This document shows, piece after piece, positions 897 through 48,039 of a DNA stretch of 64,000 nucleotides. The translations under genes and the position numbers were made by a program. Each line of letters begins with the position of its first letter. The first letter of the stretch is position 1. Below the pieces are notes generated by a model. The model was not told where the DNA came from, did not search any database, and saw only the letters and a program-made list of their open reading frames with translations. The stretch lies in the NCBI RefSeq assembly GCF_018141445.1, contig NZ_CP058649.1, forward strand, positions 453,001-517,000, given 5' to 3'. The DNA comes from Vallitalea pronyensis. GTDB taxonomy: Bacteria > Bacillota > Clostridia > Lachnospirales > Vallitaleaceae.

Positions 897-2714
897 GTGT
901 TAGGGTTTATCACTTCTTTATTTGAAGTATCATTAGGTTGTAGTATCGTTATTGTTGGATTAATGTTGCTATCACCCATGATACAGAAACATTATGGGGC
1001 TAAGTGGAAGTATTGGATTTGGTTATTATTAGCTCTTCGGCTGTTATTACCTTTTGATACGCCTATTCTGGAGGGATATGACATTGAATTACCTAAGATA
1101 ACCATGATAAGGAATTCTCAAGCTCAACAAGTAAGCCCATTTAATGCAGGGCAATCGGGAATGCCTTTTCAGATAGTGGATTCCCACATACAGAAAACTA
1201 CCGTGAATCATCAGACCTTATACACTAAATCCGAACCTATCACGATAAAAGAAGTGTTGCTCTATATCTGGGTTGGTGGCATGTTGTTATATATGCTATA
1301 TCATCTTATGGCATACCGTTATATGCGTCATCAAGTACTAAGATGGAGTCGACCGATTACCAATGGCTGTATGTTGGAAGAAATTGATAAGGTGACGACC
1401 CATATGCATATAACCAAACATATACCTTGCTATATTTGTGAAAAAGTTTGGACACCCATGATGATTGGTTTTATAAAACCTGTCTTACTATTTCCTAAGG
1501 GAGATTATAATAAGACCCAGTTACATTATATCATGAAGCATGAATACATGCATTATAAGCGTCATGATGTGTGGTATAAGTTATTGTTACTCATGGTGAA
1601 TGGATTACATTGGTTTAACCCTTTGGTCTATATCATGCGTCAACATGCCACGAAAGACATAGAGTTATGTTGTGATGACGATGTGGTAAAAGGGTGTACC
1701 TTTGAACAACGCATACAATACGGCAAGACCATACTTGCATCCATATCGGAACAACAAAAGTATCCCATGGCTTTATGCACATACTTTAATCAAGGAAAGA
1801 AAATGGTAAAAGACCGATTAGGAGGTATTATTAATATGAAAAAAAGAAGAAATGGCATGGTTTTGTTTGGTGCTTTTGGTATATGCACCCTTGTGATCAG
1901 TGGATTATTGACATTTGATCATGTAACGGCAAAGCAAATGGATATTGACATCATGCCTGAAAAAAAACCTGTAGCTACAACCACAGATGATACGGCCACA
2001 GATGATACGACCATTGAGGATAGTCATGGTGAAGTTGATCCTGTAGCCATGGATCGTTTAACGAATGCTGTGTTAAGCAATGATATACGTTATGTCAAAG
2101 ATGTCATAGAAGAAGGTAATCTAGACCTTAACATACAAGACAGTAAAGGTCGGTATCCTTTAGCAGTGACTTTAATCATGACCAATTGTGATATGGCTAA
2201 GTTATTGTTACATGCCGGTGCAGACCCCTTTGTGACCACCTCAGACGGTGAAACAATCTACGATCAAGCCATGGCTACGGATTCAAAGTATTTTATTGAG
2301 ATTTTTAAACAATATGGTATACATGCTAAATCAGAAGAAGTCAAAGACAATGAGGGTGGGCAACATTATTTTACCACCACAACCAAAGAGGCCGTTGAAT
2401 TTTATATCAAGGCCCTTTTAGAAAGTAATTATGAGGCTATCTATGCCATCAGCTATGGCAGTGAATATCATACAGATGGTCAAGACATATATGATACCAT
2501 TCAGATAAAATCGGTTAAACTGCTTCATGGCGAGACGAGAGGCAACAAGGCATATTATTCTTTAGAACTGGATATTTCAGATGGAGGTAATTCTGCATTT
2601 GAAACGGGCATCTTTCCAAGATGGCTTTACTTAAATAAGGGCGAACAAGGATGGTACGCGGAAGGTTTAATGACCAGTGGTGCTCCTGATGATACATGGT
2701 GGGAAAGTGAGTAA
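897..2714 (+). CDS. BlaR1/MecR1-like M56 membrane metallopeptidase with ankyrin and DUF4829-like sensor region
   Basis: A 605-aa membrane protein starting at GTG after TAAGGAGG. Hydrophobic segments lie near residues 9-27, 37-52, 120-137 and 322-340. The zinc-protease motif HEYMH (residues 215-219) with downstream ELCCDDDVV is typical of M56 antirepressors, which relieve BlaI-type repression after sensing an extracellular signal. The C-terminal part is not the penicillin-binding sensor of true BlaR1. It holds a Thr/Asp-rich linker, ankyrin-like repeats (about residues 385-470, e.g. a segment starting RYPLAVTL and ending in AGADP) and a roughly 100-residue domain resembling DUF4829 (from about 495). 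The inducer is therefore unlikely to be recognised as in classical beta-lactam sensing. Confidence 0.85.
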   Translation: MLGFITSLFEVSLGCSIVIVGLMLLSPMIQKHYGAKWKYWIWLLLALRLLLPFDTPILEGYDIELPKITMIRNSQAQQVSPFNAGQSGMPFQIVDSHIQKTTVNHQTLYTKSEPITIKEVLLYIWVGGMLLYMLYHLMAYRYMRHQVLRWSRPITNGCMLEEIDKVTTHMHITKHIPCYICEKVWTPMMIGFIKPVLLFPKGDYNKTQLHYIMKHEYMHYKRHDVWYKLLLLMVNGLHWFNPLVYIMRQHATKDIELCCDDDVVKGCTFEQRIQYGKTILASISEQQKYPMALCTYFNQGKKMVKDRLGGIINMKKRRNGMVLFGAFGICTLVISGLLTFDHVTAKQMDIDIMPEKKPVATTTDDTATDDTTIEDSHGEVDPVAMDRLTNAVLSNDIRYVKDVIEEGNLDLNIQDSKGRYPLAVTLIMTNCDMAKLLLHAGADPFVTTSDGETIYDQAMATDSKYFIEIFKQYGIHAKSEEVKDNEGGQHYFTTTTKEAVEFYIKALLESNYEAIYAISYGSEYHTDGQDIYDTIQIKSVKLLHGETRGNKAYYSLELDISDGGNSAFETGIFPRWLYLNKGEQGWYAEGLMTSGAPDDTWWESE

Positions 2715-2775
2715 TAAATTGTAATTCAGTGCTATAGTAATTCTTATAATGTAGCGCCATAAAAGAGATGCAGAA

Positions 2776-2848
2776 GGGCTGTTTGATAAAAGCATTATCG
2801 TTTTGGTGAATTGCTTGACCATATACGTAAATACTTTTATGATAGCCC
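2776..2848. repeat. Nested inverted repeat downstream of the M56 gene
   Basis: GGGCT (2776-2780) pairs with AGCCC (2844-2848), and inside it ATAAAAG (2786-2792) pairs with CTTTTAT (2834-2840), separated by a small asymmetric internal loop. The apical loop is 41 nt. No T tract follows, so it is at best an atypical terminator. It belongs to the group of 3'-end nested repeats seen across this window. Confidence 0.5.
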
Positions 2849-2965
2849 CTTTGCCTATTGTTTATAAATTATTGTGAACCACGTAACTTTTTGTACGATT
2901 ATTTCTTATATGGACATGCCAAGAGACGGTTTGAGCAGAATTATAAATACAAAAGCATTATGTAC

Positions 2966-2993
2966 TTGACTATCATTCAAAACATGATAAAAT
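2966..2993 (+). promoter_or_regulatory. Promoter of tRNA-Arg
   Basis: TTGACT (2966-2971), a 16-nt spacer and TAAAAT (2988-2993), with the mature tRNA starting 31 nt after the -10. The spacing is good and the -10 is one base from consensus. Confidence 0.6.
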
Positions 2994-3024
2994 ATATTAC
3001 AGATGTGCAAAATTGTGCACAGAT

Positions 3025-3098
3025 GTTTCCGTAGCTCAGCAGGATAGAGCGACCGCCTCCTAAGCGGTAGGCCGTGGGTTCGAATCCCGCCGGGAACG
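3025..3098 (+). tRNA. tRNA-Arg (anticodon CCU)
   Basis: A complete cloverleaf can be drawn. The acceptor stem is GTTTCCG with CGGGAAC (one G-U), the D arm is GCTCAGCAGGATAGAGC, the anticodon stem ACCGC/GCGGT closes the loop CTCCTAA, and the T arm is GTGGG-TTCGAAT-CCCGC. The loop gives anticodon CCT, reading AGG. The discriminator base is G and CCA is not encoded. It stands alone with its own promoter; a T-tract hairpin follows 93 nt downstream. Confidence 0.95.
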
Positions 3099-3190
3099 TT
3101 GATAAATAAAGGGATTGCGGTCTTGGGGAAAATTATAAAATACTTAAAGTTACCAAAAAGTTATCACAGTTAAATAAGGAAATCAAAAAT

Positions 3191-3215
3191 CAAGCTTACT
3201 AGAGCTTGTTTTTTA
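3191..3215 (+). terminator. Terminator of the tRNA-Arg transcript
   Basis: CAAGCT (3191-3196) pairs with AGCTTG (3203-3208) over a 6-nt loop, followed by TTTTTTAT. From here to the next gene (3216-3625) the DNA is very A+T rich, with short inverted AT repeats near 3356-3390. I see no gene or recognisable riboswitch in it. Confidence 0.8.
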
Positions 3216-3625
3216 TTTGCTACGTTATGATCTTAATAATTGATTACAAGCGTAGTCGAAAAAAGACGAATTTCTATGCCAAATTATGACAAACATTTCT
3301 GAAATATTATGCTATTATTGTATTACTTTCGATCGAAGTGATAAATTCAAACAATATTTAATTAAATAATACATCATAATTATTTAATTAATACACGAAG
3401 TCAGTATAAAGGGGGTTATAAATTACATAAAGAATGAATTACATTAGACAACATTGGTTGGCGATAATGATAACATAATAAATTGACGTCAAATAAGTAG
3501 TATATAGATTTAAAGTGAAGAATGTAAGTTTTTATACTAATAGAAATTTATTAAATATAGGAATGAAAAATAAAAAACATATTAGTAAATGTAATAGAAA
3601 TAATAATTTTTAGGAGGAAAATATT

Positions 3626-4054
3626 ATGAAGAAAATACTATTAAGCTTAACTATTATCTTGGGCATTTTAAGTACTGGAATTGCGGCACAAGCTCAAACG
3701 AATTATAGTGAGAGTGAAAATAACGATTCATTATCAAGGGCAGATAGATTTTATGCGCGTTATGAAAACGCCGTTGTAGAAGGGGATTTTAAAGAAAAAG
3801 GCGATAGAGATTATTTTAAGATATATGCAGATGAAACAGATACTTTGAAAATTAGATTTCATTATGATGGCAATCCAGATATAGACTTGGAAATCTATAA
3901 TATGGAAGGAGAAAGAACAGATAAATTTTCGAATGTTGAAAGCAGCTTCGATGCAGATTTTTATTTAGAAGAAAATGATTATATTTATGTATGTGTTGAT
4001 CATGATAGCGGAGATTTAGAAGGCGATTACCGATTATATTTTTACTTAAAATAA
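3626..4054 (+). CDS. Small secreted protein with PPC (pre-peptidase C-terminal) domain
   Basis: A 142-aa protein with a clear signal peptide (residues 1-24, cleavage near AAQA). The rest is a single beta-sandwich resembling the bacterial pre-peptidase C-terminal domain. SESENNDSLSRAD is the usual start (E-x-N-D-S-x-x-x-A), followed by GDRDYFKIYA, the NPDIDLEIYN strand and YIYVCVDHDSGDLEGDYRLYF. PPC domains normally hang on the end of secreted proteases or other enzymes; here the domain stands alone, so it may be a binding or chaperone module. AGGAGG sits 6-12 nt before the ATG. It is monocistronic, with its own terminator. Confidence 0.75.
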   Translation: MKKILLSLTIILGILSTGIAAQAQTNYSESENNDSLSRADRFYARYENAVVEGDFKEKGDRDYFKIYADETDTLKIRFHYDGNPDIDLEIYNMEGERTDKFSNVESSFDADFYLEENDYIYVCVDHDSGDLEGDYRLYFYLK

Positions 4055-4110
4055 TACATAAGCCTATATTTAGGACAAATCATTAAAGTAGTAAAATAAC
4101 TACACTTTAT

Positions 4111-4138
4111 AGTCTACCTATTGGTAGGCTTTTTTTTA
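4111..4138 (+). terminator. Intrinsic terminator after the PPC protein
   Basis: An eight-base-pair stem AGTCTACC/GGTAGGCT (one G-T pair) with loop TATT, followed by eight T residues. Confidence 0.85.
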
Positions 4139-4300
4139 TGTAATCTATTTAGATAAAGTATGATTCATTAGTCAATCTAAGTCTATCATCAAAGGTGTAT
4201 TACAAGTAGTTTATCAAATACCATGAATTGGATAGATTATCCTTTTTCACATTTTCACATAATTTCATGATAATTACTCCGTATTTTGTGTTTATACTAA

Positions 4301-4335
4301 ACCCATAGTTAAAACAAAGCCTTTTAACTATAGGT
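4301..4335 (+). other. Hairpin in the leader of the four-repeat secreted protein
   Basis: ACCCATAGTTAAAA pairs with TTTTAACTATAGGT, 13 of 14 positions, over a 7-nt loop, about 100 nt upstream of the start codon. No T tract follows, so it is not a terminator. A second small stem (AAATTC/GAATTT, about 4350-4375) lies between it and the ribosome site. It could be an mRNA 5' stabiliser, an operator or a regulatory leader. The rest of the 4139-4438 gap shows nothing recognisable. Confidence 0.45.
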
Positions 4336-4438
4336 TGAATGAAAAACACAAATTCATTCGATAGAAGAATTTCAATGACAAGAAATTCAGAAAATATGCC
4401 GATTAAGGCAAATACAATTAATATGGAGGTTATGCGTT

Positions 4439-5359
4439 ATGATGAAAAAGAATTTAGCAGTATTAGGATTAGGTGTTTTATTATCAGCAACCCTGTTGGC
4501 ACCAGTTAATGCAAGTGAGGTTGTAGAAGAAAGTAAAGCAGAAAAAAGTTATTCGATGCAAAAAAGATTCAATAGGGGTGATAAAGAAGAATGGCTTAAT
4601 GGTGCTTTAGAGAAATTAGAAGCAGCTTATGAAGATGGTAGTTTATCAGAAGAGGATTATCAGCTTAAAAAAGAGAGATTACAACAGATCATGGAACGTA
4701 TTGAAAGTGGTGAATTCACTGGTAGACCAGGTAAACCCATGCATACAGAAATGACAAAAGAAGAAAAACTGGCAAAAGTAGATGACATGTTAGCTGGTCT
4801 TGAAGAGAAATATAGCAATGGTGATATAGACGAGGAACGCTATACAGCTGCAAAAGCAAAAATGGAAGAGATGCGTGTTAAGATTGAAAACGATGAAGAA
4901 GTATTCTTTGGGAAAAAAGGTGGTAAGAGAGGCGAGAAGCCCCATCGCATAGATTTTCAAAATCTAAGGCAAGAAGAAATCTTAGCTAAAATGGATGAGA
5001 AATTAGTTAATCTTGAAGAAAAATATACAGCAGGAGACTTAACAGAAGAAAAATACACGGCAATTAAAGAAAAAATAGAAGAGATGCGCGTTAAAGTAGA
5101 GAACGGCGAGGAAATCTTTGATGGTTCTTTAAAAGAGAAGTTTGATGGTAGAAGACCTAAAGGTTTTGGCGATAAAATAAGAGATAAAAAAGGTGATTTC
5201 CAAGCCTTAACAGATGAAGAAAAGGTTACAAAGCTTCAAGAGCACTTAACAAAGTTAGACGAACAGCTTAGTGAAAGTAAAATAGATCAAGAACGCTACG
5301 ATAAAGTAAAAGAAAAGATTACCACAATGCTTGAAGAGCTTCAAAGCAGTGAAGAATAA
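4439..5359 (+). CDS. Secreted helical protein with four charged repeats
   Basis: A 306-aa protein with a signal peptide (residues 1-25, ending VNAS). The mature part has four repeats of about 45 residues at roughly 50-93, 108-156, 178-227 and 259-303. Each fits EEK-LxxLEEKYxxGxxxEExYxxxKxKxEEMxxxIExGEE, two helices joined by a short-domain-like turn (YSNGDIDEERY, YTAGDLTEEKY). Basic Gly/Lys-rich linkers separate them. The repeat resembles SHOCT-like helical hairpins, but I do not recognise a named family. GGAGG lies 9 nt before the first of two adjacent ATG codons. A role in envelope stress or ion binding is guesswork. Confidence 0.75.
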   Translation: MMKKNLAVLGLGVLLSATLLAPVNASEVVEESKAEKSYSMQKRFNRGDKEEWLNGALEKLEAAYEDGSLSEEDYQLKKERLQQIMERIESGEFTGRPGKPMHTEMTKEEKLAKVDDMLAGLEEKYSNGDIDEERYTAAKAKMEEMRVKIENDEEVFFGKKGGKRGEKPHRIDFQNLRQEEILAKMDEKLVNLEEKYTAGDLTEEKYTAIKEKIEEMRVKVENGEEIFDGSLKEKFDGRRPKGFGDKIRDKKGDFQALTDEEKVTKLQEHLTKLDEQLSESKIDQERYDKVKEKITTMLEELQSSEE

Positions 5360-5404
5360 GCTAAGTCTGAAAAATAATAAAGATTAACCATAATGTGTAA
5401 AAAG

Positions 5405-5441
5405 AGGCTGTCTCCTAACATAAATGGAGGTAGCCTTTTTA
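5405..5441 (+). terminator. Intrinsic terminator after the four-repeat protein
   Basis: An eleven-base-pair stem AGGCTGTCTCC/GGAGGTAGCCT (two G-T pairs) with a 10-nt loop, followed by TTTTTATAT. Confidence 0.85.
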
Positions 5442-5737
5442 TATGCTAGATATGAAGGTATATTAGAATTAATAGTTAAAAACATAAGGAGATAGCTATT
5501 ATATTTTCATCATTTAATATCAATTTTAACCAGTTAGGTGGTTGCATTATATACGTTTATTTATTAAAGCAGCAATTATCAATAAGTAATTAAAACAAAA
5601 GAAACCACCAAAAAACCATTTTATTTATGGTATTATCTAGCCTATATTGTGAGGCAAATTGTTATGTAATATAATGAAAAATAGAAGCCAAAAGATAGAA
5701 GGAGAAGGTGGCTTAGATGTTTGGAGGAGGTAAGGAT
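5442..5737 (+). other. Leader region upstream of tryptophanase
   Basis: No tnaC-like leader peptide with a tryptophan codon is visible. GGTGGTT near 5536 can pair with AACCACC near 5603, and ACCAT/ATGGT forms a small stem near 5610-5625, so a folded leader is possible. No clear consensus promoter can be chosen in this A+T-rich stretch. Confidence 0.3.
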
Positions 5738-7114
5738 ATGCGAAAAGCGGAACCGTTTAAAATCAAGATGGTGGAACCTATTCGATTAATTCCCAGAGAA
5801 GAAAGAGAGGCACGTCTTAAGGAAGCAGGCTATAATCCTTTTGCCCTTCGTGGGGAAGATGTGTACATTGATTTGTTAACAGATAGTGGAACCGGTGCTA
5901 TGAGTGACCGTCAATGGGCAGCACTGATGATGGGGGATGAATCCTATGCTGGAAGCCGTAGTTTTTATCGCTTAGAAGATGTGATGAAGAAGATTACAGG
6001 CTATCAGTATGTGATACCTGCCCATCAAGGTCGTGGTGCAGAACAAATATTATTCCCTAATGTCATTAAAAACAAAGGGGATTATGTATTAAATAACATG
6101 CACTTTGATACAACGAAGGCACATGTGGAAATTGCAGGGGGCCGAGCCATCAATCTTATTGATGACAAGGCTTTTGATACCATGACTTATGATGATTTTA
6201 AGGGTAATTTTGATCTTGAAAAGCTAGAAGCCTTTATACAGAATAATCCTTTAGAGAAAATAGCGTGTATCGTTGTGACGGTAACCTGTAATTCCTCAGG
6301 AGGGCAACCTGTATCCATGGCCAACATTAAAGGCGTTAAGAAAATTGCGGACCATTATGGTCTGAAAGTTTTCTTTGATGCTGCTCGTTATGCAGAAAAT
6401 GCCTATTTCATTAAACAGCGAGAAGAGGGTTACCAAGACAAAACCATACGGGAAATTGCACTTGAAATGTTTAGCTATGGTCATGGGATGATGATGAGTT
6501 GTAAGAAGGATGGTTTGGTAAACATTGGTGGTATTATTGCTATACATGATGATCTGGAGCTTTATCGAGCATGCCGTTCCATTATGGTGCCTTTAGAAGG
6601 ATTTCCTACTTATGGGGGTATGGCAGGTAGAGATATGGAAGCCTTGGCAGTAGGCCTTGAAGAAGCCCTTGAAGAGGATTATCTGGCATATCGAATGGAT
6701 CAAGTTAAATACTTAGGTGAGCGATTAATCAAAGCAGAGGTTCCCATTCAGTACCCTACAGGAGGTCATGCCGTTTTTGTGGATTGTAAAAAAATATGTT
6801 CCCATATACCTTATGACCAATTTCCTGCACAGGCTGTATGTAATGCCGTTTATCTTGCTGGTGGTGTGCGTGCCGTAGAAATCGGGTCTTTCCTACTTGG
6901 AAGAGATCCAGATACAGGTGAAAACCTAGAGTCACCTCTTGAGTTCATGCGATTAACGATACCACGAAGAGTGTACACCAATCGTCATATGGATGTTGTT
7001 GCGGATGCCGTTATTGAAGTTTTTCATCATGCTGACCAACTGGTAGGCTTGGCATTTGATTATGAACCAAAGGTTCTAAGACATTTTACAGCAAGGCTTC
7101 GTCCTGTTCAGTAA
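5738..7114 (+). CDS. tnaA: Tryptophanase (L-tryptophan indole-lyase, PLP enzyme)
   Basis: A 458-aa beta-eliminating lyase that cleaves L-tryptophan to indole, pyruvate and ammonia in the cytoplasm. Visible family motifs are [49 protein letters not shown] (Asp214 and Arg217 of the PLP pocket), SCKKD (Schiff-base Lys257) and the C-terminal RHFTARL. The substrate-deciding position in [13 protein letters not shown] carries Ile, as in tryptophanases; tyrosine phenol-lyases have the phenol-binding Arg there. ATG 5738 is preferred over ATG 5717 because GGAGGAGG lies 7 nt upstream. The gene is monocistronic, between two terminators. No adjacent tryptophan permease is present. Confidence 0.88.
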
Positions 7115-7250
7115 AGACTCTTGTGTCAATCTATTTTAAGTATAAATGCTAATATAAACAGAATTATCTTTAAATTATATAAGAAAAAATAAAAAATATT
7201 TTTATGTAAATTTTTAAATAATTCTCTTAAAAAATCAATAGGATTTTGAC

Positions 7251-7294
7251 GACCATTCAAACTGTCTCAATAAGCATAAGAATGGTCTTTTTTT
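7251..7294 (+). terminator. Intrinsic terminator after tnaA
   Basis: GACCATTC (7251-7258) pairs with GAATGGTC (7280-7287) and is followed by TTTTTTT. The loop is 21 nt. Confidence 0.8.
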
Positions 7295-7371
7295 GATGTT
7301 TTTTAATCTGAAATATGACAAGAAATATTAAGTCTGTGTAACAATTAATTAATACTTTTGTAATATATTAC

Positions 7372-7400
7372 TTGCATACATCAACGGTTTTGTGTATAAT
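7372..7400 (+). promoter_or_regulatory. Promoter of the CAP-domain protein gene
   Basis: TTGCAT (7372-7377), a 17-nt spacer and TATAAT (7395-7400). The transcript would carry a leader of about 130 nt. I could not match that leader to a known riboswitch class. Confidence 0.7.
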
Positions 7401-7538
7401 AAGAATTGTGGAGCAGTAAAACATGTTTGAAACATTAATATTTGTTTAATATTTGTGTAATAACTTGTTAAGTTGCTTCAAGGGCTAAATGTTACTCGTA
7501 AACCAAGCAAGAGGGAAGTAGAAAGGGGCCGATAAATA

Positions 7539-8963
7539 ATGACAAAAAAACTAGTAGGATTACTACTAGTTGTTGTAATGGCTTTTAGCTTATTTGGGAC
7601 AACGATAAGTGCACAGGCAACGGGACAAAATTGTGGATACACACAAGAAAGGGCGACTGGACCTAAAGTTTATATGAACGGTAATAAAGTATTATTTAAT
7701 AAAGACTTAGGGTATCCTTACATAGATCGCTCTAATCGAACACAAATTCCATTCAGAGCTTTTTCAGAAGCATGTCAATTTCAAGTTGGTTGGGATGGTG
7801 AGACAAGAACAGGTTATGCGAAAAAGGGTGACATGACGGTAACAATTCCAGTGGATAAGAACTATATTACTGTGAATGGCAAAGTCGTTAATAGTGATAC
7901 ACAGAATGTTATTATTAATGGACGGGTTCATTTACCATTGCGCATTGTGTTGGAAGCTTTTGGTTATAACGTTAAATGGGATGGTGACAATGGATGTATC
8001 TACATTCAGCCAGGTGATGATCAGCAACAACCAGAAGAACCAACAGAACCAGAACCTGTGGATCCGGGTGATAACAATGAACAACCAGTAGAGCAGCCTA
8101 CAGAACCAGGTGACAATGGTAATGAACAACCTCAAGAACCCGCAGAACCTGTAGAGTTTAGTAAAGAAGCGTTAAGGGGCATCCATATTGGAGATGACGT
8201 TTCAAAAGTAACAGATAAATTAGGGCAACCTAAGCGTACAGATGTAAGTGGTCATGGCTTTAAGTGGTATATTTATAATCAAGCATATGAGCAATATTTA
8301 CAAATAGGTATCAAAGACAATAAAGTTGTTGCGCTTTATACCAATGCTTCTTATTGGAAATTGACCGAAACAGTTCGATATGGGGCATCGACTGACACGG
8401 TTAAGAAGGATTTTGGAGCCAAGAATGATTATGGTAACCAGTTAAAGACAACAGCTGGTGATATGGACTATACGTTCTATGTGGACCAGTATGACAATAA
8501 CAAAGTAGTTGCAGTTCTTATGATGGACAAGGGTGTAAAAAGTAAAGGTTATTATGTGCAAAGTAGTGCAGAACTACGTACCAGCTATGAAAATGAAGTA
8601 TTCGATCTTACAAATGTAGAGCGTGTAAATAAAGGATTAAAACCATACAAATGGCGTGATGATTTAGCTAAAGTGGCAAGGGATCATAGCAAAGATATGA
8701 TTGCTAATGATTATTTCTCTCATACCAATAAGCAAGGACAAGCACCATGGGATAGAGCGAAACAAGCTGGCATTAGTTATTCCTATTTTAGTGAGAACAT
8801 TGCATATGGTCAGAAAGATGCCATGCATGTTGTTAACGGATGGATGAATTCATCAGGTCATAGAAGAAGTATATTAAGTACAGATTGTACAGGCTTAGGT
8901 GTTGGTGTATGGTTTAAAAGTGACAATACACCCTATTACACACAAAACTTCATTAAGGATTAG
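7539..8963 (+). CDS. Secreted CAP-domain protein with stalk (copper-amine-oxidase-like) domain
   Basis: A 474-aa exported protein. A signal peptide (1-27, AQA) is followed by a stalk domain of the copper amine oxidase N-terminal type (about 45-153, repeats such as RTQIPFRAFSEA and RVHLPLRIVLEAFGYNVKWD). A Pro/Glu/Gln linker (157-205), a CAP-associated N-terminal domain (208-330, with GDDVSKVTDKLGQP) and a C-terminal CAP/SCP domain (350-474) follow. The CAP domain keeps HSKDMIANDYFSH, SENIAYG and NSSGHRRSILS, so the usual His/Glu pocket is present. The stalk type is common on clostridial cell-surface proteins. The family is often linked to the wall or to sporulation; the reaction catalysed, if any, is unknown. 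GAAAGGGG precedes the ATG. Confidence 0.85.
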   Translation: MTKKLVGLLLVVVMAFSLFGTTISAQATGQNCGYTQERATGPKVYMNGNKVLFNKDLGYPYIDRSNRTQIPFRAFSEACQFQVGWDGETRTGYAKKGDMTVTIPVDKNYITVNGKVVNSDTQNVIINGRVHLPLRIVLEAFGYNVKWDGDNGCIYIQPGDDQQQPEEPTEPEPVDPGDNNEQPVEQPTEPGDNGNEQPQEPAEPVEFSKEALRGIHIGDDVSKVTDKLGQPKRTDVSGHGFKWYIYNQAYEQYLQIGIKDNKVVALYTNASYWKLTETVRYGASTDTVKKDFGAKNDYGNQLKTTAGDMDYTFYVDQYDNNKVVAVLMMDKGVKSKGYYVQSSAELRTSYENEVFDLTNVERVNKGLKPYKWRDDLAKVARDHSKDMIANDYFSHTNKQGQAPWDRAKQAGISYSYFSENIAYGQKDAMHVVNGWMNSSGHRRSILSTDCTGLGVGVWFKSDNTPYYTQNFIKD

Positions 8964-46840: not shown

Positions 46841-46870
46841 AAAAAAAGGAAACTCCACGGAGTTTCCTTT
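46841..46870 (-). terminator. Terminator of the small YtxH-like gene
   Basis: On the minus strand AAAGGAAACTCC pairs with GGAGTTTCCTTT across two bases and runs into TTTT. It lies directly downstream of the 53-aa gene. Confidence 0.75.
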
Positions 46871-46874
46871 GTCG

Positions 46875-47036
46875 TTACATCATACCTTTTAGATCGTCCA
46901 TAAGACGTTCTGCTTTATGCATCATTTTTTTCCCTTTTCGTTGCATTTTACGCACTTCTCGCTTATCCATGTTCATAAGCGCTAAAGAAGACGCGCCAAT
47001 AACGCTACCTAAAATAATACCAGTTGAAAATTTCAT
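46875..47036 (-). CDS. Small YtxH-like protein, 53 aa
   Basis: A minus-strand frame beginning MKFSTGIILGSVIGASSLAL, continuing MNMDKREVRKMQRKGKKMMH and ending LMDDLKGMM. The glycine-rich N-terminal transmembrane helix plus basic helical tail is typical of YtxH/YtxH-like small membrane proteins. GGAGAAATATTTC precedes the ATG and a strong terminator follows, so the gene is well supported despite its size. Family role poorly known, often stress-linked. The DnaA-box cluster lies immediately upstream. Confidence 0.75.
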   Translation of the reverse strand: MKFSTGIILGSVIGASSLALMNMDKREVRKMQRKGKKMMHKAERLMDDLKGMM

Positions 47037-47121
47037 GAAATATTTCTCCTTCCATAATAAACTCCATTATTATTTTGGAATATGGCGGGAAATTTATACT
47101 GGTAAAAAATGAAAAGGTCAT

Positions 47122-47277
47122 TTATCCACAAAATGATTATCCACATTTCAAAAAATGACAAAATAACACCTGTAAAAGGTTTATACATTTTTTGAATGCT
47201 GGATACGACAGCTTTGTGGATAGTGAATAAAGTTATCCCCAAGAAAATGGGGTTATCAACAGGGAAAATGTGGATAA
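47122..47277. other. DnaA-box cluster
   Basis: Consensus DnaA boxes TTATCCACA occur at 47122-47130 and 47137-47145 (plus) and 47269-47277 (minus, TGTGGATAA). One-mismatch boxes lie at 47215-47223 (minus, TGTGGATAG), 47233-47241 (TTATCCCCA) and 47253-47261 (TTATCAACA). Six boxes in 156 bp between two minus-strand genes. GGGTTATC/GATAACCC also forms an 8-bp stem at 47251-47279. No dnaA, dnaN or other origin genes are in the window, so a titration or regulatory cluster is more likely than oriC. Confidence 0.75.
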
Positions 47278-47283
47278 CCCTAT

Positions 47284-48039
47284 TTATATGGTTATTATAT
47301 TCTTAAAAGTGCTATATTCGTCAGATTTTATGTCGCTAAGAATCATGTCTACACTGCTGACATCTGCTACCTTATAAGGTGATACCTGATTAAATTTGGA
47401 TTCGTCCACTAATAAGTACCAATTATAAGCCACTTCAAGAACAGAAGTAATAATCTTATGATTCACTTCTGTTGAGACAGATATCCCAAAGTTCTTATCA
47501 ATAGCGGAGCAGCTGGTAATGGTCTTATTGATATTAAAAGTTTTAAGATATTCACTCATTTGTGGGTTCGTGGTAAAGGTGTAATTATCATAGACAATGA
47601 CTTCACCACCCATTAATATCAAGGTTCTACATTTTTCTTTTAAGATAAGAGCCGCTTCTAGGTTATTGGTAATGACTGAGATATCATCGCTTCTTTTAAT
47701 ATGTCTTGCTAAAGCAGCACAGGTATAGCCTGAACCTAAAAATATGGTATCACCCTTTTGTATGTAAGGATAGGCGGCTGCAGCCAGCTTTTCCTTCTTC
47801 AATGTGATGCTTGTAGGGGATGATGAATTTTTAGGTGGTGTCACCAAGGTGTTATGCTTCTTATTAAGCACAGCTCCACCATGGGTCTTCGTTATAAGAC
47901 CTTGTTCTTGCAGTTTATTAAGATCCTTGCGAATGGTCACATCGCTTACTTGGAATAGATCAACAAGATTATTCACATGGACAATCCCTTTTTTCTCAAG
48001 TAATTCGAGAATTTTTTCTGAACGTTGTATAGCAAACAT
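47284..48039 (-). CDS. iolR: DeoR-family repressor, probable inositol regulator
   Basis: A 251-aa DeoR/GlpR-type regulator. N-terminal HTH (RSEKILELLEKKGIVHVNNLVDLFQVSDVTIRKDLNKLQEQGLITKTHGGAVL) and C-terminal sugar-phosphate-binding domain (IFLGSGYTCAALARHI, VITNNLEAALIL, LLVDESKFNQ). In Bacillus, IolR is of this family and responds to a phosphorylated inositol intermediate. It is the last gene of the minus-strand iol set, after iolB with a 130-nt gap. Its likely sites are the TTATGAATRG copies in the iolD/transporter intergenic region. The name rests on context. Confidence 0.75.
   Translation of the reverse strand: MFAIQRSEKILELLEKKGIVHVNNLVDLFQVSDVTIRKDLNKLQEQGLITKTHGGAVLNKKHNTLVTPPKNSSSPTSITLKKEKLAAAAYPYIQKGDTIFLGSGYTCAALARHIKRSDDISVITNNLEAALILKEKCRTLILMGGEVIVYDNYTFTTNPQMSEYLKTFNINKTITSCSAIDKNFGISVSTEVNHKIITSVLEVAYNWYLLVDESKFNQVSPYKVADVSSVDMILSDIKSDEYSTFKNIITI

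Follow-up and report, generated by a model that had tools for sequence, protein, structure and literature searches.

A compact DnaA-box core in Vallitalea pronyensis and its relatives as a probable origin-proximal site of replication control

Why should a bacterial chromosome carry a dense group of DnaA boxes between two genes that have no evident part in replication? The question is raised by positions 47122 to 47277 of the window, i.e. the whole 64,000-nucleotide stretch of DNA analysed here (C1:453001-517000), which belongs to the 6.33 Mb, two-contig genome (G000; contigs C1 and C2) of Vallitalea pronyensis, placed at NCBI in the order Lachnospirales, family Vallitaleaceae. Positions below refer to the window unless prefixed by C1. 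A box search of the window agrees with the initial annotation, which had described six boxes, three exact (two plus, one minus) and three with one mismatch, lying between two minus-strand genes:

47122, plus strand: exact DnaA box TTATCCACA (box search of the window)
47137, plus strand: exact DnaA box TTATCCACA (box search of the window)
47215 to 47223, minus strand: fourth box, one-mismatch CTATCCACA (box search)
47233 to 47241, plus strand: core box III, one-mismatch TTATCCCCA, oriented as box II at a start distance of 20 bp
47253 to 47261, plus strand: core box II, one-mismatch TTATCAACA, facing box I at a start distance of 16 bp
47269 to 47277, minus strand: core box I, exact TTATCCACA (box search and 14-sequence alignment A3)

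At the place of the fourth box (47215), relatives have CTATACACA (G003, G004, G005), CTATATACA (G001) or no box (G002); CTATACACA fits the looser DnaA-box consensus TTATNCACA (PMC4447404, excerpt) except at its first base.

The genome has 233 exact boxes, all of which were located, 231 on C1 and two on C2. Stretches with at least three exact-box starts within 147 bp number three on C1, namely the two halves of oriC and the present cluster, against 0.0032 expected under uniform placement, and at least three exact boxes within 500 bp occur in four regions, against 0.033 expected:

oriC: seven exact boxes
C1:60121-60575: five exact boxes
cluster at 47122 to 47277: three exact boxes
C1:5350018-5350415: three exact boxes

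Counted across the genome, a box density such as that of the cluster is rare by chance and is matched by oriC alone. The prospect that AT-rich 9-mers have come together here by accident is negligible; boxes with up to one mismatch are indeed plentiful in the window (50 versus 26.6 in shuffles), but triplets of this kind are hardly expected at all, and the conservation of the core in 15 genomes, described below, refutes such a reading.

The two remaining regions deserve mention in their own right. The cluster at C1:60121-60575 (L068), the second strong one, includes two TTATCCACATTATCCACAATGTT repeats and lies between a murC-like gene, named by eye, and a gene pair made up of a DnaB_2-domain (DnaD-like) gene and a DnaI-like gene; weak matches to R1, the sequence model introduced below, also occur in G001-G005, some 2 kb away from the DnaI-like gene, and DnaA may regulate the gene of its own helicase loader through this cluster. 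The region at C1:5350018-5350415 (L070) is a looser group, with no R1 match at its boxes at E values up to 1.

The absence of dnaA and dnaN from the window, also noted in the initial annotation, is explained by their position, as dnaA lies outside it on the minus strand at C1:407.1 kb with dnaN adjoining. The gene is confirmed by Pfam, which also recognizes the box-binding domain Bac_DnaA_C, and it is flanked by dnaN, recF and gyrB on one side and by rpmH, rnpA, yidC, jag and trmE on the other (names assigned from the gene sequences). Upstream of dnaA, between rpmH and dnaA, seven exact boxes (C1:408,176-408,454) mark oriC, and the sign of the GC skew changes at about the same interval, 92 kb from the cluster. 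That the cluster is a second or relic replication origin is very improbable. Its box density is origin-like, but the 4-kb GC skew, mostly positive in the window, does not switch lastingly at 47 kb; the open reading frames at 42-53 kb, inspected by eye, showed no gene for an initiator or a helicase loader, and the two PF00308 matches in the genome are located away from the cluster. With neither a GC-skew switch nor linkage to dnaA and dnaN, and with oriC found elsewhere, the cluster is rejected as an origin.

Three of the six boxes form a compact core, here called module 1:

47232 to 47278, minus strand: whole three-box core, matched by R1 in the genome with E 1.6e-12, R1 being built partly from this sequence

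The core is 47 bp long; its box I faces the other two, with start-to-start spacings of 15-16 and 20 bp, and the core reads TTATCCACA-N7-TGTTGATAA-N11-TGGGGATAA on the minus strand (47277 to 47233). A strict version of this pattern has one match in each of nine of the 22 genomes of the family, and its reverse has none; G001 is missed on account of its box II, which is TGGGGATAA. Reading the surroundings of tdk (14 genomes with a tdk match among 17 searched) yielded cores in the g8 genomes G012, G016, G019 and G021, with the same box positions (0/15/35). R1, a sequence-only model built from 14 sequences, has a single strong match in each of 15 family genomes out of 22, the next match having an E value of 0.006. 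Fourteen of these 15 are training sequences that match by construction; the other, G010, lies outside the training set and is matched with E 5.4e-7, and its genome is poor in box-like sequences (979 candidates at first look versus 2,274-7,913 in the other 21). In the remaining seven, belonging to g3 (G007, G013, G017, G020) and g7 (G011, G015, G018), no core stands out above background, the best R1 matches having background-level E values of 0.007-0.34. In alignment A3 (14 sequences) the box positions are invariant or nearly so and the spacers differ between genera. When facing pairs with starts 14-16 bp apart and at most two mismatches in sum were scanned for a third box with at most one mismatch, all 15 family loci proved to have one, which stood at 20 bp in 14 of them and at 21 bp in the other, full-length matches having been selected for that distance because R1 itself carries the 20-bp spacing. 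The fixed three-box geometry, an orientation like that of the Escherichia coli DARS sites and the occurrence in other families of the order are all points beyond those made in the initial annotation.

The genes beside the core are far less constant than the core itself. Upstream of it in V. pronyensis is a regulator gene, apparently a chance neighbour:

47284 to 48039, minus strand: DeoR-family regulator, iolR-like (Pfam DeoRC/HTH_DeoR)

An iolR relative adjoins the core in one of the 16 loci tested, that of G000, and in none of the 15 others (the four g8 loci being approximately 3 kb long). The idea that read-through of iolR is under DnaA control is thus unsupported, and iolR is rejected as a target, the neighbour elsewhere being tdk, phoH or another gene. 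Similarly dismissed was an iolR terminator inside the cluster, as the CCCC/GGGG arms at 47237-47252 are, by eye, not kept in G001, G002 and G004. The YtxH-like gene adjoins the core in nine genomes. With loci read over 10-14 kb, tdk lies upstream and the small gene downstream of the core in G001, G003, G004, G005 and G008, other genes lie upstream in G002, G009 and G014, and in G000, where iolR is upstream, tdk is 16 kb away; in G006 and the four g8 genomes the core is upstream of tdk with no small gene, and in G010 it directly precedes a phoH-type gene. Since the neighbours change in this way, none of iolR, tdk and the small gene is a constant partner of the core, which argues for a site with its own function, at which each neighbour could also be regulated.

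On its other side, the cluster of V. pronyensis includes a second group of boxes, next to a small gene:

47122 to 47145, plus strand: module 2, two exact tandem boxes with starts 15 bp apart
47093 to 47115, minus strand: promoter-like element TTTTCA(T/A)TTTTT(A/G)CCAGTATA, directly downstream of module 2 (alignment of six genus members)
46875 to 47036, minus strand: 53-aa YtxH-like small gene, with one N-terminal membrane-like stretch, by eye
46845 to 46870, minus strand: terminator-like hairpin with a T run, 3' of the small gene

Upstream of the 53-aa gene, all six genus genomes have the tandem pair, with starts 14-15 bp apart (one copy being TTGTCCACA in G001), and a conserved TTTTCAWTTTTTRCCAGTATA motif immediately after it, and the distance between modules 1 and 2 varies. 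A sigma-70 scan found promoter-like sites no more often than in shuffles, and the conserved motif was not among them. The hairpin lies just beyond the small gene, and the gene therefore probably ends its own transcript. Its name was taken over from the initial annotation; homologues at E values up to 0.1 occur in 20 of 41 genomes, its own included, and a Pfam match of the protein to CNNM (E 0.0039), being below the Pfam cut-off, was left unused. Module 2 is genus-specific. The suggestion that DnaA controls the YtxH-like gene thus survives in part: within Vallitalea, regulation through the tandem pair is possible, given boxes that abut the promoter-like motif in six of six genomes, but control of this gene is not the only role of the core, because the core persists without the gene in G006, G010 and the four g8 genomes. 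The sda promoter of B. subtilis likewise has boxes upstream of the gene for a very small protein, Sda; it differs in that the small protein here is, by eye, membrane-peptide-like, and in that some relatives keep the core but not the gene.

Applied to 246 genomes of the order, R1 matched 53 of them at E values of 0.001 or below, comprising the 15 of the family and 38 others, whose matches were read as 43 regions:

21 regions: intervals with a rhomboid protease gene on one side and a uracil-DNA glycosylase (UDG) gene on the other
nine regions: oriC, recognized by dnaA and/or dnaN beside the R1 match
one region (G449): three-box geometry near ytxH and phoH relatives
12 regions: no reference genes, other than an abrB-like gene in L129

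The rhomboid and UDG genes were identified by PF01694 and PF03167 in L134 and by PF03167 in L136, and in the other loci by tblastn to L134. These 21 loci come from 21 of the 22 R1-matching genomes of one family, f18, which we take, as a guess, to be the Lachnospiraceae. Their third box stands at exactly 20 bp from the pair in 19 of 21 cases, the exceptions being L130 and L156, and always on the UDG side (19/19). In five of them (L137, L148, L154, L155, L171), R1 matched only the pair, and box III was present 20 bp away, outside the match, in all five, which makes them a cleaner test of the spacing than full-length R1 matches. Pair-only matches elsewhere (L141, L150, L168, L169) had a third box at 19-21 bp in none of four cases, and among the 12 regions that are neither UDG, oriC nor ytxH loci, four (L129, L132, L140, L145) had one. 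At oriC (17 loci, six pairs), third-box offsets were 10, 12, 20, 22, 22, 29, 33, 34, 44 and 45 bp, the one at 20 bp being in L159. Loci of other kinds had a third box at 19-21 bp in 11 of 21 cases, five of which (L052, L057, L058, L060, L065) came from a pattern search that imposed this range and five more (L129, L132, L140, L145, L149) from R1, which favours it. When the gaps were left free (0-30), the three-box pattern was found in 10 of 398 genomes, in oriC in six of the 10 and with differing spacings; one match, in G121, had II-III at 20 and I-II at 12. A phylum-wide motif is rejected on these figures. The exact pattern, run over 84,980 species, gave 15 matches, of which five are in family genomes and the other 10 are near various genes, in oriC or unplaced; none are counted as support because the pattern imposes the spacing.

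Several of these loci have further features. A second facing box pair is present in eight of the 21 UDG loci (L139, L142, L148, L154, L155, L160, L161, L162), at 152-160 bp from the first. In other Clostridia, at L056/L129 (one locus) and L057, the three-box pattern is about 1 kb or less from an abrB/spoVT-like gene, identified by eye. At L065, in Gottfriedia endophytica, the pattern (4481-4524) is followed, roughly 150 bp downstream, by a gene that we take to resemble spoIIQ; if this is what it is, DnaA would be linked to sporulation.

Because the core sits just upstream of the UDG gene in those loci, an arrangement that would also fit plain promoter control, DnaA might be no more than an ordinary transcription factor for whichever gene is adjacent, YtxH-like here and UDG elsewhere, with replication control a by-product at most. 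This is unlikely. It draws on the genus-conserved tandem pair abutting a conserved promoter-like motif, on the closeness of box III to the UDG start and on B. subtilis, where DnaA is a direct activator of sda and an apparent repressor of ywlC, vpr and further genes (PMC4447404, excerpt). Against it, no small gene was found in six core-bearing genomes (G006, G010, G012, G016, G019, G021), the neighbour varies (YtxH-like, tdk, phoH), and in all eight loci outside the family in which the upstream regions of small-gene homologues were read (L010-L016, L018), the nearest 400 bp contained no box, even with one mismatch allowed, a reading that left out six weaker small-gene matches and preceded the finding of G449, which has both gene and boxes.

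The position of the core on the chromosome is a second regularity. With dnaA sought in G000, 12 relatives and the start of the G517 and G623 contigs, the distance from the core to dnaA/oriC is 92 kb in G000, 55 kb in G001, 105 kb in G003, 98 kb in G004, 158 kb in G009 and 88 kb in G019, and the core of the UDG locus is 35 kb from dnaA in G517 and 30 kb in G623 (single contigs taken as circles with dnaA at the start). The range is thus 30-158 kb in the eight genomes in which both were seen on one contig; the two are on different contigs in G002, G005, G008 and G014, and no full dnaA match was found in G006. This nearness to oriC, seen in eight core-bearing genomes only, may stem from conserved gene order.

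The closest tested precedent is B. subtilis, where the title of the original study reportedly describes the DnaA-box clusters as oriC-proximal. Joint removal of six non-oriC clusters leads to early initiation in that organism (PMC5295017 and PMC13220808, excerpts), and restoring a single cluster, at various positions, partly corrects this (PMC5295017, excerpt). Like these, the cluster of V. pronyensis consists of several intergenic boxes away from the origin, is a significant group in an oriC-proximal position and belongs to a set found beside assorted genes; one of the B. subtilis clusters, that of sda, even lies by a small gene. The genes are other ones (sda, ywlC, ywcI/vpr, yydA, trmE and gcp/ydiF; PMC4447404, excerpt), and the descriptions, in the excerpts compared, give no fixed three-box geometry, the comparison being one of descriptions and not of sequences. 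The likening of the cluster to those of B. subtilis in the initial annotation is therefore upheld as far as a conserved element, near dnaA and with no fixed neighbour, is concerned, and DnaA binding and an effect on the timing of initiation are what the likeness would predict.

On balance, the cluster is probably an oriC-proximal DnaA-binding site of replication control that, in Vallitalea, would also subject the small gene to DnaA. According to this model, built on sequence comparisons, DnaA would assemble on the three-box core, whose box I faces the other two at fixed distances, and the assembly would remove or alter DnaA, tuning initiation soon after the site has been replicated; replication of the site shortly after initiation would double a DnaA sink or switch. 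In Vallitalea, the tandem pair set against the promoter-like motif would probably let DnaA regulate the small membrane-protein gene as well. A more modest version, in which the cluster titrates DnaA passively, box number alone matters and geometry is merely inherited, is a possibility that we regard as somewhat unlikely. The B. subtilis experiments just cited, with their early initiation and its partial relief by a single cluster, are in its favour, but box III stands at 20-21 bp in each of the 15 family loci and at 20 bp in 19 of 21 UDG loci even as the spacers diverge, and the third-box offsets at oriC scatter, an argument from spacing that is weakened by the selection inherent in R1. If the core only titrates, it would still generalize the B. 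subtilis clusters and give them a defined architecture.

The geometry of the core also invites comparison with E. coli. In MG1655, the bioD-uvrB interval (L073) contains TTATCCACT-N5-TGTGGATAA-N3-TGTGTATTA and the rppH-mutH interval (L074) contains TTATCCCAG-N5-TGTGGATAA-N3-GGTGTAAGA. The latter is presumably the core of DARS2, given its equal spacing. The former is identified as the core of DARS1, its flanks matching deletion primers in PMC4585315 (excerpt). In both DARS cores, box I is opposite to boxes II and III, the spacing is equal and a DnaA pair is head-to-head (PMC5742627 and PMC8682772, excerpts), and the element described here has the same three intergenic boxes, orientation and facing I-II pair. 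The start distances differ, being 14 (I-II) and 12 (II-III) in DARS1 and DARS2 versus 15-16 and 20 here, such that boxes II and III are about two helical turns apart instead of one, and because II-III is 20 and not 12 the element is not classed as a DARS. R1 does find DARS1 (19.5 bits, E 1.7e-4) and has no match to DARS2 at E values up to 1, but the DARS1 similarity is mostly that of the facing pair and proves no homology. In E. coli, DARS1 is at 17.5 min and DARS2 at 64 min (PMC5295017, excerpt). Another E. coli locus, datA, resembles the element in being a non-coding group of DnaA boxes, and it controls DnaA as the element would, its minimal region being boxes 2, 3 and 7 plus an IHF site (PMC5742627, excerpt). 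As for B. subtilis, it reportedly has neither DARS nor datA, and regulators of the nucleotide state of DnaA are called unknown in its phylum (PMC13220808, excerpt).

The element may work like a DARS. That it is the outright Firmicute counterpart, with the facing pair and third box driving nucleotide exchange or otherwise switching DnaA, is an unlikely proposal, but one that would, if true, give several Lachnospirales families a regulatory element of this kind, in the phylum of B. subtilis. A compact 47-bp site of fixed geometry, present once per genome in most family members and recurring in other families, raises in any case the question of whether such an arrangement, two facing DnaA molecules and a third box, can alter the nucleotide state of Firmicute DnaA. 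To our knowledge, a DnaA site with three boxes in fixed arrangement has not been described in Clostridia, and among the titles and abstract openings listed in searches of open-licence papers, none describes this element in Clostridia or beside UDG. Lastly, DNA repair genes lie beside several of the cores considered, with uvrB (L073) and mutH (L074) next to those of the E. coli DARS and UDG next to that of L134, possibly by coincidence.
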